Positions 3,508 through 45,842 of a stretch of DNA of 64,000 nt are shown here, one piece after another. Position 1 is the stretch's first letter; each line of letters opens with the position of its first letter. Source of the stretch: Candidatus Saccharimonadota bacterium (GTDB lineage: Bacteria > Patescibacteriota > Saccharimonadia > Saccharimonadales > Saccharimonadaceae); assembly GCA_017540545.1 (NCBI GenBank), contig JAFYAV010000001.1, positions 1 through 64,000 of the forward strand, in the 5' to 3' direction. The notes beneath the pieces were generated by a model. The model had not been told where the DNA came from. It made no database searches and saw only the letters and a list, made by a program, of their open reading frames with translations. Made by a program: the position numbers and the translations under genes.

Positions 3508-5505
3508 TTAGAAGTCCAAATCATCCAAGTTTACTGTTGCGGCGCGGGATTGAATGAAATTCTTACGCAATTCTGCCTCTGAACCCATCAACTTCGTAAA
3601 GATTGCATCCGCTTTCTCGGCATCCTCAATATTTACCCGAATTAACGTACGGTTCTTTGGATTCATCGTGGTCTCCCAAAGTTGAGCAGCATCCATCTCG
3701 CCCAAACCTTTAAAACGTTGTTGCGCCGTATAACCGGCCTGTTTAAAGCGTTCGTCTTCCGGATTAATCTTCGTGCCAGCCGCTTTGCGCTCCTCAATCT
3801 TCTTCGTCAAAGTATGCTCAAGCGCCTCTTCGTTATAGATATATTCAATTTTGCGCTGCGAACCTGTACCTTTTATCAAGCCAAATAGCGGCGGTTTCGC
3901 CAGATAAACATGACCAGCCTTAATCACCTCTGGCATATAACGGAAGAAGAAAGTCAAAAGCAAAGTCGAAATATGCGCGCCATCCACATCAGCATCCGTC
4001 ATAAATACAATCTTGTAATAGCGCAAGCCGTTGATATCAAAGGAGTCGCCAATACCTACACCCATCGCCTTAATCAGGGATACAATCTCCGCATTTGCGA
4101 ACATCTTATCTAAGCGTGCGCGCTCAGTATTCAACACCTTACCGCGCAAAGGCAAAATAGCCTGGATCTTGCTGTCGCGCCCCTCCTTTGCCGAACCGGC
4201 TGCCGAATTACCCTCTACGATAAATAGCTCACACTCAGTCCGGTCACGCGATGAGCAATCCGCCAACTTCGAAGGCAAATTCAAACCCTCGAACGCACCC
4301 TTACGAATGACATTGTCGCGCGCCGCTCGTGCCGCTTTGCGTGCTCGTGCCGCCAAAGTGGCTTTCTGGACAATCTTCTTTGCAACTTCCGGATGTTCCT
4401 CAAGATAATATGCAAAATATTCGCTCGTCACCTTATCGACATAACCACGCACTTCTGGGTTGCCGAGCTTATTTTTGGTCTGACCTTCAAACTGCGGATC
4501 CGGCAATTTCACCAGCACTACTGCCGTCAAACCTTCTTTAATATCATCACCGGTTAGGTTGTCTTCTTTTTCTTTCAAAAGCCCATTCTTACGTGCATAA
4601 TCGTTAATCGTGCGATTTAGAGCAGTACGAAAACCGACCACGTGCGTACCGCCATCTGGCGTCAATACGTTATTGGCGAATGGGCGAATCGTCTCCGAAA
4701 AACTGTCGTTATATTGCACTGCGACTTCCACAACACTATCCGCAATCTCCTTCTCGGCGTAGAAAATATCATCCGACAGAACTTCCTTGCCCTCATTCAA
4801 ACGACGTACGTAGCTCTTAATTCCACCCTCAAAGTAAAAGGACTCGCTCTTCCCGGTACGTTCATCATGTACGCAGGTCAAAATGCCCTTCGTTAGATAT
4901 GCCTGATGTCGTAAATAATTCACTACCCAGTCGTAATCAAATACTATGGTTTCCTTAAAAATAGTCTCATCTGGGTAGAACGTAATGCTCGTACCGTGAC
5001 GCTCGGTGCTACCAGTCACCCCAAATGGCACCACTGTCTTGCCATAATCAAACTCAATATGGTGAACCTTCCCCTCTTTGTATACCTCGGCCACCATATG
5101 CTTAGATAATGCGTTTACTACCGATGAACCCACACCGTGCAAACCAGATGACACCTTATAGCCACCGCCGCCGAACTTACCACCGGCATGCAAGATGGTT
5201 AATACCGTTTCTAAAGCAGACATTTTTGTTTTAGGATGAATATCGACTGGAATACCACGACCATCATCATCAACTCGACAGCCGCCATCCGCTAGCAATG
5301 TGACCGTAACGCAAGTTGCATAACCCGCAATCGCCTCATCGATTGAGTTGTCGGCAATTTCCTTGATTAAATGATGTAAGCCATCATAGCCAGTCGAGCC
5401 AATATACATACCAGGGCGCTTACGCACTGGCTCAAGCCCTTCAAGAACCTGAATCTCCTCAGCATTATACTCATCCGCCCCACCGGACTTCTTCGTTGCA
5501 GTCAT
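3508..5505 (-). CDS. gyrB: DNA gyrase subunit B
   Basis: The ATPase subunit of gyrase, 665 residues. The GHKL ATP site is seen in EIADNSIDEA, DDDGRGIPVD and GLHGVGSSVVNAL; the TOPRIM domain follows with CELFIVEGNSAAGSA and the acidic metal motif DADVDGAHI; the C-terminus ends in the usual QRFKGLGEM and DLDF region. It is first in a gyrB-gyrA operon. The start ATG follows GAGGTAAG, a plausible ribosome site, in a ~40-nt leader. Confidence 0.98.
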   Translation of the reverse strand: MTATKKSGGADEYNAEEIQVLEGLEPVRKRPGMYIGSTGYDGLHHLIKEIADNSIDEAIAGYATCVTVTLLADGGCRVDDDGRGIPVDIHPKTKMSALETVLTILHAGGKFGGGGYKVSSGLHGVGSSVVNALSKHMVAEVYKEGKVHHIEFDYGKTVVPFGVTGSTERHGTSITFYPDETIFKETIVFDYDWVVNYLRHQAYLTKGILTCVHDERTGKSESFYFEGGIKSYVRRLNEGKEVLSDDIFYAEKEIADSVVEVAVQYNDSFSETIRPFANNVLTPDGGTHVVGFRTALNRTINDYARKNGLLKEKEDNLTGDDIKEGLTAVVLVKLPDPQFEGQTKNKLGNPEVRGYVDKVTSEYFAYYLEEHPEVAKKIVQKATLAARARKAARAARDNVIRKGAFEGLNLPSKLADCSSRDRTECELFIVEGNSAAGSAKEGRDSKIQAILPLRGKVLNTERARLDKMFANAEIVSLIKAMGVGIGDSFDINGLRYYKIVFMTDADVDGAHISTLLLTFFFRYMPEVIKAGHVYLAKPPLFGLIKGTGSQRKIEYIYNEEALEHTLTKKIEERKAAGTKINPEDERFKQAGYTAQQRFKGLGEMDAAQLWETTMNPKNRTLIRVNIEDAEKADAIFTKLMGSEAELRKNFIQSRAATVNLDDLDF

Positions 5506-27605: not shown

Positions 27606-27641
27606 CCCCAAAATATGCTATTATTTACCTATCCGACAAGT

Positions 27642-27718
27642 GGGTCGCTAGCTCAGTTGGCTAGAGCGCCTCGTTTACACCGAGGAGGTCGGGGGTTCGA
27701 GCCCCTCGCGACCCACCA
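27642..27718 (+). tRNA. tRNA-Val (TAC)
   Basis: Complete cloverleaf with acceptor GGGTCGC/GCGACCC, anticodon loop TTTACAC (anticodon TAC), T-loop TTCGAGC and an encoded CCA. It is the first tRNA followed by the 3'-end repeat element. Confidence 0.96.
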
Positions 27719-27905
27719 AACCAAGAAAAATGCCCAGAGGGTATTTTTTGTTGGTTTGCTTAGTTTCAGAGCGTGGGGCGAGAACCCGCAGGGTTCGTGC
27801 GAACAAGGAGCCGAGGCAAGCAAAAAATGCTTGCATTTTTATTTGCGAGGCGACGCAGTGAATCAAGGCTCCATCAGGAGCCGCTGCCCCTCGCGACCCA
27901 CCAAA
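27701..27905 (+). mobile_element. tRNA 3'-end repeat element, copy A (tRNA-Val)
   Basis: After tRNA-Val comes a terminator-like hairpin (TGCCC/GGGTA + T run), then hairpin 1 GAACCC-gca-GGGTTC, the conserved block AGGAGCCGAG, hairpin 2 (GC-rich ends enclosing A- and T-rich arms), CGAGGCGACGC, hairpin 3 GGCTCC/GGAGCC and finally a direct repeat of the tRNA 3' end (27701-27720 repeated at 27886-27905; period 185 bp). A second terminator (CACTCAA/TTGAGTG) follows the copy, as expected if it is the original tRNA flank pushed away by an insertion. No ORF inside. Confidence 0.75.
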
Positions 27906-28027
27906 GAAAGCACTCAATCGAAAGGTTGAGTGTTTTCTATGCTCAATGGTAAAAAGTAGAAGCCAACAGGATTTGGACACCCAGAACTCCGTTTTAAACA
28001 TTTTTTAACTTGTAGTACAATCAAAGC

Positions 28028-28250: not shown

Positions 28251-28326
28251 GGGGTGTTAGCTCAGTTGGTAGAGCGATTGGTTCGCAATCAATAGGTCAG
28301 GAGTTCGAATCTCCTACACTCCACCA
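28251..28326 (+). tRNA. tRNA-Ala (CGC)
   Basis: Cloverleaf with acceptor GGGGTGT/ACACTCC including the G3-U70 pair that identifies alanine tRNAs, anticodon loop TTCGCAA (CGC), encoded CCA, and TATAAT upstream (28231-28236). It is the second tRNA followed by the repeat element. Confidence 0.95.
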
Positions 28327-28573
28327 AAAAACGAAAAGATGGCCGTCAGGTCATATTTTTGTTTTTTAATGCAGGAGATGAGAACTCGCAGAGTTCGGTA
28401 GCAAAAGGAGCCGAGCGAAGCAAAAAAGCTTGCTTTTTTATTTCCGAGGCGACGCCTTGCTATGTCTCGAGCTTAGCGAGAGATATATCTCCTACACTCC
28501 ACCAAAAAACGAAAAGATGGCCGTCAGGTCATATTTTTGTTTTTATATCCAGGAGATGAGAACTCGCAGAGTT
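28309..28573 (+). mobile_element. tRNA 3'-end repeat element, copy B plus truncated second copy (tRNA-Ala)
   Basis: Same order as copy A: terminator hairpin, hairpin 1 GAACTC-gca-GAGTTC, AGGAGCCGAG, hairpin 2 (AAAAAAGC/GCTTTTTT), CGAGGCGACGCC, hairpin 3 TCTCG/CGAGA, then the tRNA-Ala 3' end again (28309 repeated at 28487; period 178 bp). Here the repeat continues through the terminator for 58 nt and, after a short variable gap, through hairpin 1 (28373-28395 = 28551-28573), where it stops. So a second, truncated element stands in tandem. Confidence 0.75.
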
Positions 28574-45489: not shown

Positions 45490-45564
45490 GCGGGTGTCGT
45501 ATAACGGCTATTATGTATCCTTCCCAAGGATAAGACGAGAGTTCGACTCTCTCCACCCGCACCA
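45490..45564 (+). tRNA. tRNA-Gly (CCC)
   Basis: Cloverleaf with acceptor GCGGGTG/CACCCGC, anticodon loop TTCCCAA (CCC), T-stem GAGAG/CTCTC and encoded CCA. It is the third tRNA followed by the 3'-end repeat element. Confidence 0.95.
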
Positions 45565-45749
45565 GCAAAACAAAGACAACCCCAAAGGGGTTATTTTTGT
45601 TTTGTCCCATGCTGAAGCGAAGAGAGGCGAACGTAGTTCGTCCGAAGTAGGAGCCGAGCGAAAACTAGGAACGTAGTTCGTCGTTTTCCGAGGCGACGCC
45701 CTGAGGTATAGCCTTGCGCCAGCAAGGCGCTCTCTCTCCACCCGCACCA
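45547..45749 (+). mobile_element. tRNA 3'-end repeat element, copy C (tRNA-Gly)
   Basis: After tRNA-Gly: terminator ACCCC-AAA-GGGGT with a T run, hairpin 1 CGAAC-gta-GTTCG, AGGAGCCGAGCGA, hairpin 2 GAAAAC...GTTTTC with an inner GAAC-gta-GTTC, CGAGGCGACGCC, hairpin 3 GCCTTGC/GCAAGGC, then the last 18 nt of tRNA-Gly again (45547-45564 = 45732-45749; period 185 bp), and another terminator (ATAACC/GGTTAT). Sequence in the hairpin arms differs from copies A and B, but pairing is kept. Confidence 0.75.
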
Positions 45750-45842
45750 AGATGAACGAAGAATAACCGATTGAGGTTATTTTTTGTTTACCTAAGCCAC
45801 AATTGCCCGCGCCAAACCGTTTATGCTAAAATATAACTAATT

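Follow-up and report, generated by a model that had tools for sequence, protein, structure and literature searches.

What is the segment of about 180 bp that follows some tRNA genes in Candidatus Saccharimonadota and ends in a second copy of the 3' end of the preceding tRNA, and is it maintained as DNA or as RNA? The question arises at three of the six tRNA genes that ARAGORN recognises in the window, the whole stretch of 64,000 nucleotides analysed here.

Three tRNA-associated elements in the window

The last 18 nt (nt 59–76) of tRNA-Val, tRNA-Ala and tRNA-Gly recur at 18 of 18 positions with periods of 185, 178 and 185 bp, and the copies end at 27903, 28504 and 45749, respectively. Instead of A58, another base precedes the copy in each of the three elements, so the copy begins exactly at nt 59. 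The blocks AGGAGCCGAG and CGAGGCGACGC are common to the three elements. Terminator-like hairpins, read from the sequence, lie 3' of each of the three tRNAs and 3' of each copy; the tRNA genes for Thr, Asp and Arg are without an element. The sequence-only reading of this DNA had proposed one design with these periods, an exact 18-nt repeat, shared blocks, two terminators and three unoccupied tRNAs, and it holds in each of these points. The coordinates are listed below, with helices P1–P6 named as in the fold described in the next section.

27642–27718, + strand: host tRNA-Val(tac) (ARAGORN), with nt 59–76 at 27701–27718
27719–27759, + strand: first terminator-like palindrome of the Val unit (sequence)
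27771–27787, + strand: Val 5' arm, which copies the host T-arm in inverted orientation (P1 strand GCGTGGGGC, GA, P2 strand GAACCC)
27791–27797, + strand: GGGTTCG of the Val element, direct copy of host tRNA nt 51–57 (3' strand of P2 and G57)
27798–27885, + strand: Val core, P3–P6, occupying the place of A58
27806–27815 and 27846–27856, + strand: Val core blocks AGGAGCCGAG and CGAGGCGACGC, respectively
27886–27903, + strand: Val tail, 18-nt direct copy of tRNA-Val nt 59–76 (18/18)
27904–27940, + strand: second terminator-like hairpin of the Val unit (sequence)
28251–28326, + strand: host tRNA-Ala(cgc) (ARAGORN)
28371–28504, + strand: Ala element from 5' arm to 18-nt tail (tail 28487–28504); 101.9 bits with covariance model R2
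28505–28573, + strand: truncated second tandem unit at the Ala site, with terminator 28505–28545 and 5' arm 28550–28573 (sequence)
45490–45564, + strand: host tRNA-Gly(ccc) (ARAGORN)
45618–45749, + strand: Gly element from 5' arm to 18-nt tail (tail 45732–45749, 18/18); 97.3 bits with R2
45750–45790, + strand: second terminator-like hairpin of the Gly unit (sequence)

Two earlier statements need amendment. The Ala element does repeat the tRNA tail, but an exact repeat of 40 nt follows that tail, comprising another terminator and the truncated 5' arm of a second unit, so the Ala site is a broken tandem array. The claim that no open reading frame lies inside is not literally correct, as mechanical ORFs traverse the Val element on both strands (27615–27929, +; 27675–28001, –); nothing suggests that they are real genes, and the element, of about 160 bp, holds no gene. 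In a scan of the window at the gathering score, Rfam reports only tRNA, tmRNA and RNase P. The exact core pattern (GGAGCCGAG together with CGAGGCGACG) occurs at just three places in the 795-kb genome, which are the three described above, and R2 adds three further elements behind the Gly(tcc), Tyr and Val(cac) tRNAs.

Anatomy of the unit and pairing on the two strands

The fold was derived from a structure alignment of 18 well-behaved copies, gap-free after loop padding. A closing helix, P1, joins the 5' strand of the element to nt 1–9 of the tail. Two linker bases, mostly GA, lead to hairpin P2 (GAAC...GTTC). A long arm, P3–P5, whose tandem G-A loops are conserved, comes next, and then hairpin P6. 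In this alignment 90% of the cells are paired, compared with 70% for shuffled letters, and 120 cells are changed on both sides, compared with 40. The covariation score reaches 0.54, against 0.16 for shuffled letters and at most 0.14 when the partners are slid. The core holds GAG/CGA and GA/GA loops, that is, a tandem G-A motif. In two copies, L178 and L188, one tandem G-A step is replaced by Watson–Crick pairs (CTTCC/GGAAG).

The outer parts of the unit follow the host tRNA. The 5' arm, from the P1 strand through two bases to the P2 strand, repeats host nt 67 to 51 in inverted orientation. Of its 17 positions, 12.6 on average agree with the reverse complement of the own host and 9.3 with that of other hosts, and the own host is strictly the best match in 58 of 83 elements. 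On the 3' side of P2 stands NNGTTCG, like host nt 51–57, followed by a core of about 90 nt with three hairpins in place of A58 and then by nt 59–76. The tRNA is thus followed by a terminator, the inverted T-arm, the direct T-arm into which the core is set, and the tail. Features new here include a 5' arm that is an inverted T-arm of the host, and a second, direct copy of this arm in which the core has taken the place of A58; the strand-symmetric pairing and the sister-genus arrangement, both described below, are new as well. In one tRNA-Gly(ccc) gene (L058, genome G016), the T-loop reads TCCG instead of TTCG, and the arm of the element behind it follows the change.

A sense strand folded as RNA can accommodate G-U pairs but not A-C mismatches. 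In 76 tRNA genes at the same loci, taken as a control, the acceptor and T stems contain 48 G-U and 2 A-C. The helices of all elements contain 58 G-U and 56 A-C, those of the best 45 copies 23 and 26, and counting by distinct local context gives 19 and 19, all of these being counts over related sequences rather than independent events. As G-U is no commoner than A-C, whatever maintains the Watson–Crick pairing acts equally on the two strands. This pattern points to DNA hairpins, or to the copying of one arm from the other, as the probable source of the pairing, and it seems to speak against the folding of a sense RNA as the main constraint. Helices P2–P6 alone have 27 G-U and 15 A-C, which leaves room for some selection at the RNA level.

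Distribution and relation to RtT

The exact core pattern was found in 26 of 37 genomes of the genus (own included) and in none of the 24 other genera of the order, each represented by one genome. With R2, at least one element was detected in 32 of 41 genomes of the genus (one marginal partial hit excluded), and nine were without. The census comprises 93 distinct elements, 91 from the genus and two (L082, L083) from a sister genus. Directly 3' of an ARAGORN tRNA lie 83 of them, with hosts of ten amino acids (Gly, Leu, Tyr, Val, Ala, Ser, Glu, Lys, Asn and Met) and 16 isoacceptors. The tail agrees with host nt 59–76 at 18 of 18 positions in 47 elements, at 17 or more in 57 and at 15 or more in 65; the median period of single copies is 181.5 bp. 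A search of related genomes for the core had been suggested as a check on the tRNA link, and its matches mostly lie after tRNAs, in many cases ending in the tail of that tRNA; a chance origin of the link is ruled out by the 93-element census. Some copies are tandemly repeated (L025/L068, L079, L169 and the Ala site of the window), and many are decaying or truncated. Among the ten elements without a recognised tRNA, three (L170, L178, L188) follow an apparently decayed tRNA, and the others lie mostly near contig ends with tRNA remnants visible. These three retain fold and tail although the tRNA is decayed or missing, and L178 and L188 have the tail GCCCAGTAAGATCCACCA in common.

In a survey of the phylum, ten of 380 genomes carried the element; in other families, elements behind Gly, Thr and Ser tRNAs likewise have an 18/18 tail, with a strongly diverged core. 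Over 85,000 species, the core pattern returned mostly GC-rich chance matches, and on the loci chosen by this pattern R2 scored high only for Saccharibacteria, with weak scores for a few others. Viral contigs gave 24 core-pattern matches, none of them convincing. Searching phages and plasmids with the E. coli unit yielded mainly phage tRNA-Tyr genes and E. coli or Klebsiella sequences.

The sequence-only reading knew of no described family with this structure, and in this it was mistaken. Databases have listed RtT (RF00391) for decades as an RNA found at E. coli tRNA operons, its role unclear. The gammaproteobacterial RtT is reported as a transcribed RNA that ends in a tRNA-like 3' half and to modulate the stringent response. 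The rtT repeats of E. coli K-12 at tyrT/tyrV (rttR, tpr) are 178-bp units behind tRNA-Tyr that end in the tRNA 3' end and share the plan described here: a 5' arm GGGGAAGGAT-GA-GAACCTT resembling the reverse complement of the T-arm, a GUUCG hairpin, and tandem copies of which the last is truncated. The elements described here differ from them in the sequence of the P3–P6 core, in that most follow a terminator, and in occupying 16 tRNA types within one genus. In the RtT units at proK (tRNA-Pro) of E. coli and Salmonella, every part is planned as in our elements: the tRNA is followed by a terminator, an arm, a core and an exact 18-nt tail, and the unit recurs, its last copy truncated. The core sequence is gammaproteobacterial. 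The RtT units checked in E. coli and Salmonella lie behind a tRNA and end in the 3' end of that tRNA. In the argV-argY-argZ-argQ cluster of E. coli K-12 (L138), free 18-nt copies of the tRNA end stand 133–135 nt after argV, argZ and argQ; the Rfam RtT model reports none of these three.

The RF00391 model matches the Saccharibacteria elements over its full length (positions 1–130), with E values down to 3.4e-5 per genome and 18.3 bits, again full length, for the Ala element. The best score, 34 bits, is below the gathering cut-off of 45, which none of 61 genomes exceeds. Reciprocally, R2 matches exactly the four rtT repeats of E. coli (E 2.5e-5 to 1.7e-4), these matches resting mainly on P1, P2 and the tail. 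With full-length reciprocal matches below the cut-off, the elements are RtT-like and not formal members of RF00391; judging from these matches, we regard them as a divergent RtT-like branch that is far more widespread. No earlier description in Saccharibacteria was found in the open-access literature. The tandem G-A motif noted in RtT (PMC7657543) is present in the core here too. RtT reportedly lies near Asn and Lys tRNAs and is expressed in Actinobacillus (PMC4986893), expression is also reported in Thioalkalivibrio (PMC8092127), and Salmonella serovars differ in rtT copy number (PMC2658671). rtT has been likened to BIMEs and BIME-associated elements (PMC2965389). BIME/REP sequences with their RAYT (Y1) are likewise small, palindromic and non-autonomous; unlike them, the elements analysed here are nearly all tRNA-bound (83 of 93) rather than dispersed between genes. 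A Y1 transposase (Y1_Tnp) occurs in just 3 of 42 congeneric genomes, not in that of the window, and does not correlate with the element.

The main rival to a DNA element is a small RNA gene of the RtT kind, read through together with the tRNA and trimmed at the CCA copy by the enzymes of tRNA 3' maturation. The reciprocal model matches, the conserved and strongly covarying fold with its CCA end, the shared tandem G-A feature and the reported expression of RtT in two other genera all fit such a gene. An RNA with a tRNA-like 3' half, which had been offered as the second reading of the locus, is what is reported for RtT itself. A small RNA gene accords poorly with the equal numbers of G-U and A-C in the helices, with the terminator-like hairpin that separates tRNA and element in most copies, with the nine congeneric genomes lacking any element and with the many copies in decay. 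We consider an RNA gene less probable than a palindromic DNA element, the reading suggested by the same plan at 16 isoacceptors, the host-copying arms and the strand-equal pairing.

Movement between tRNAs and possible mechanisms

Transfer between tRNAs is seen within single genomes. In G014, L170 and L190 stand behind different tRNAs with near-identical cores and different arms and tails, and in G026 a Glu-tailed unit, L154, stands behind tRNA-Lys. The Pro-Gly(tcc) locus has constant flanking genes, and the site between them is variously occupied, empty, tandem or deleted. Comparison of empty and occupied sites had been named as a second check, and both exist at orthologous positions (L211 against L208/L209, with flanking genes at 91.6% and 94.1% over 393 aa). 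Homology of T1/T2 is inconsistent between empty and occupied sites, and the inserted unit may be terminator+core+tail or core+tail+terminator. Taken together, these sequence comparisons support movement of the element, which would nevertheless be rare: the core tree groups by tRNA type (30 changes, 61 when shuffled) and not by genome (76 compared with 77), so most copies are inherited in place. In the sister genus g27, the core stands right after the CCA of the tRNA in L090, L096 and L097 (class II); two of the three end in a short ...TACCA copy, which puts ACCA on either side as a short duplication, and in L090 a terminator-like hairpin comes next after the element. L096 also has a coreless set of arms and tail (period 84), and L102 of the same genus looks nested.

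Part of the original proposal, a non-autonomous element that integrates site-specifically into tRNA 3' ends, stands: the tRNA link, the 18-nt rule and the many hosts are observed, whereas integration by a site-specific recombinase is hypothetical. In its strict form this would be a minimal integrative element whose 18-nt repeats serve as att core for a tyrosine recombinase acting in trans. Integrative elements of that kind likewise leave a direct repeat of the tRNA 3' end and a restored tRNA, and the exact repeats from T-loop to CCA and the orthologous empty and occupied sites agree with it. They differ from the present unit, which is of only about 160 bp, showed no integrase in or beside it, has a repeat core that changes with the host and carries arms inverted to the tRNA, which is not an att feature. 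One recombinase would not accept the cores of 16 isoacceptors, nor would a Glu tail behind tRNA-Lys be expected, and we judge this mechanism improbable. Still less probable is an old duplication at a few tRNA loci that left only vertically inherited relics without mobility; the clustering of the tree by tRNA type and the remnants at the Gly(tcc) locus (L221, L230, L231) suit immobile relics, and the same core at many tRNA types, the recent intragenomic and cross-tRNA cases and the class II insertions oppose them. A retroelement or other RNA-borne insertion into tRNA 3' ends, to which the CCA-ended unit and the class II copies right after CCA would conform, is very unlikely given the strand-symmetric pairing and a reverse transcriptase domain (RVT_1) confined to 5 of 42 congeneric genomes, absent from most element-rich ones and uncorrelated with the element.

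Our leading explanation, favoured tentatively and with somewhat less than even confidence, is a non-autonomous DNA element of RtT-like kind: a palindrome that resides at tRNA 3' ends, with arms and tail re-templated by template switching and a core that is occasionally moved. As single-stranded DNA, on the lagging strand or in a cruciform, the unit would fold into a four-way hairpin. Template switching, which we infer from the shape of the unit, may then rewrite the arms and tail to the host tRNA, acting within the palindrome and with the neighbouring tRNA and terminator palindromes, and could also yield the tandem and truncated copies. Now and then a recombination activity would carry the core to another tRNA end, leaving the tRNA intact. 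Against this explanation count the absence of a recombinase or polymerase partner among the candidates examined, the grouping of cores by tRNA type, the excess of G-U in P2–P6 and the reported transcription of gammaproteobacterial RtT. Tandem inversion duplications and quasipalindrome template switching produce a direct–inverted–direct order with palindromes at both junctions. The same order, with terminator and T-arm palindromes at both junctions, is found here; the homologous core across loci is a difference, and a simple local rearrangement each time would not account for it. If the explanation is correct, the element would provide a case in which template switching builds host-matched sequence.

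A wider reading, which we put forward as doubtful, is a class of DNA elements that colonises natural palindromes and places a conserved hairpin core in their loops; RtT would then be its gammaproteobacterial branch and not, in the first place, an RNA gene. The targets would include tRNA T-arms, tRNA CCA/terminator junctions, CIRCE operators and terminators. With arms and tail continually re-templated from the tRNA, one core could stand behind any tRNA without damage.

The core motif also occurs in other settings. In L241 (Saccharibacteria, JAFWHT010000002.1), the core at 4413–4474 on the minus strand stands between TTAGCACT and AGTGCTAA, the half-sites of a CIRCE-like inverted repeat that precedes a DnaK-like gene (dnaK), so the core may insert into palindrome loops generally. 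L262 and L304 (Eremiobacterota), and likewise L343 and L349, contain long intergenic hairpins that carry the tandem G-A core motif and have no tRNA close by; these are weak R2 matches at loci chosen by the pattern. In L249 (Rouxiella aceris, about 4535–5087), tandem repeats of about 122 bp with the core motif adjoin a tsaD-looking gene, with no tRNA near. In L285 (Fibrobacter) and L246 (Clostridiales), the GGAGCCGAG/CGAGGCGACG motif stands at the stop codon or about 100 nt past it, within a larger conserved stretch, and the upstream genes of these two distant phyla are closely similar (MYYE.IKVLDCTIRDGG..., aldolase-like by eye).
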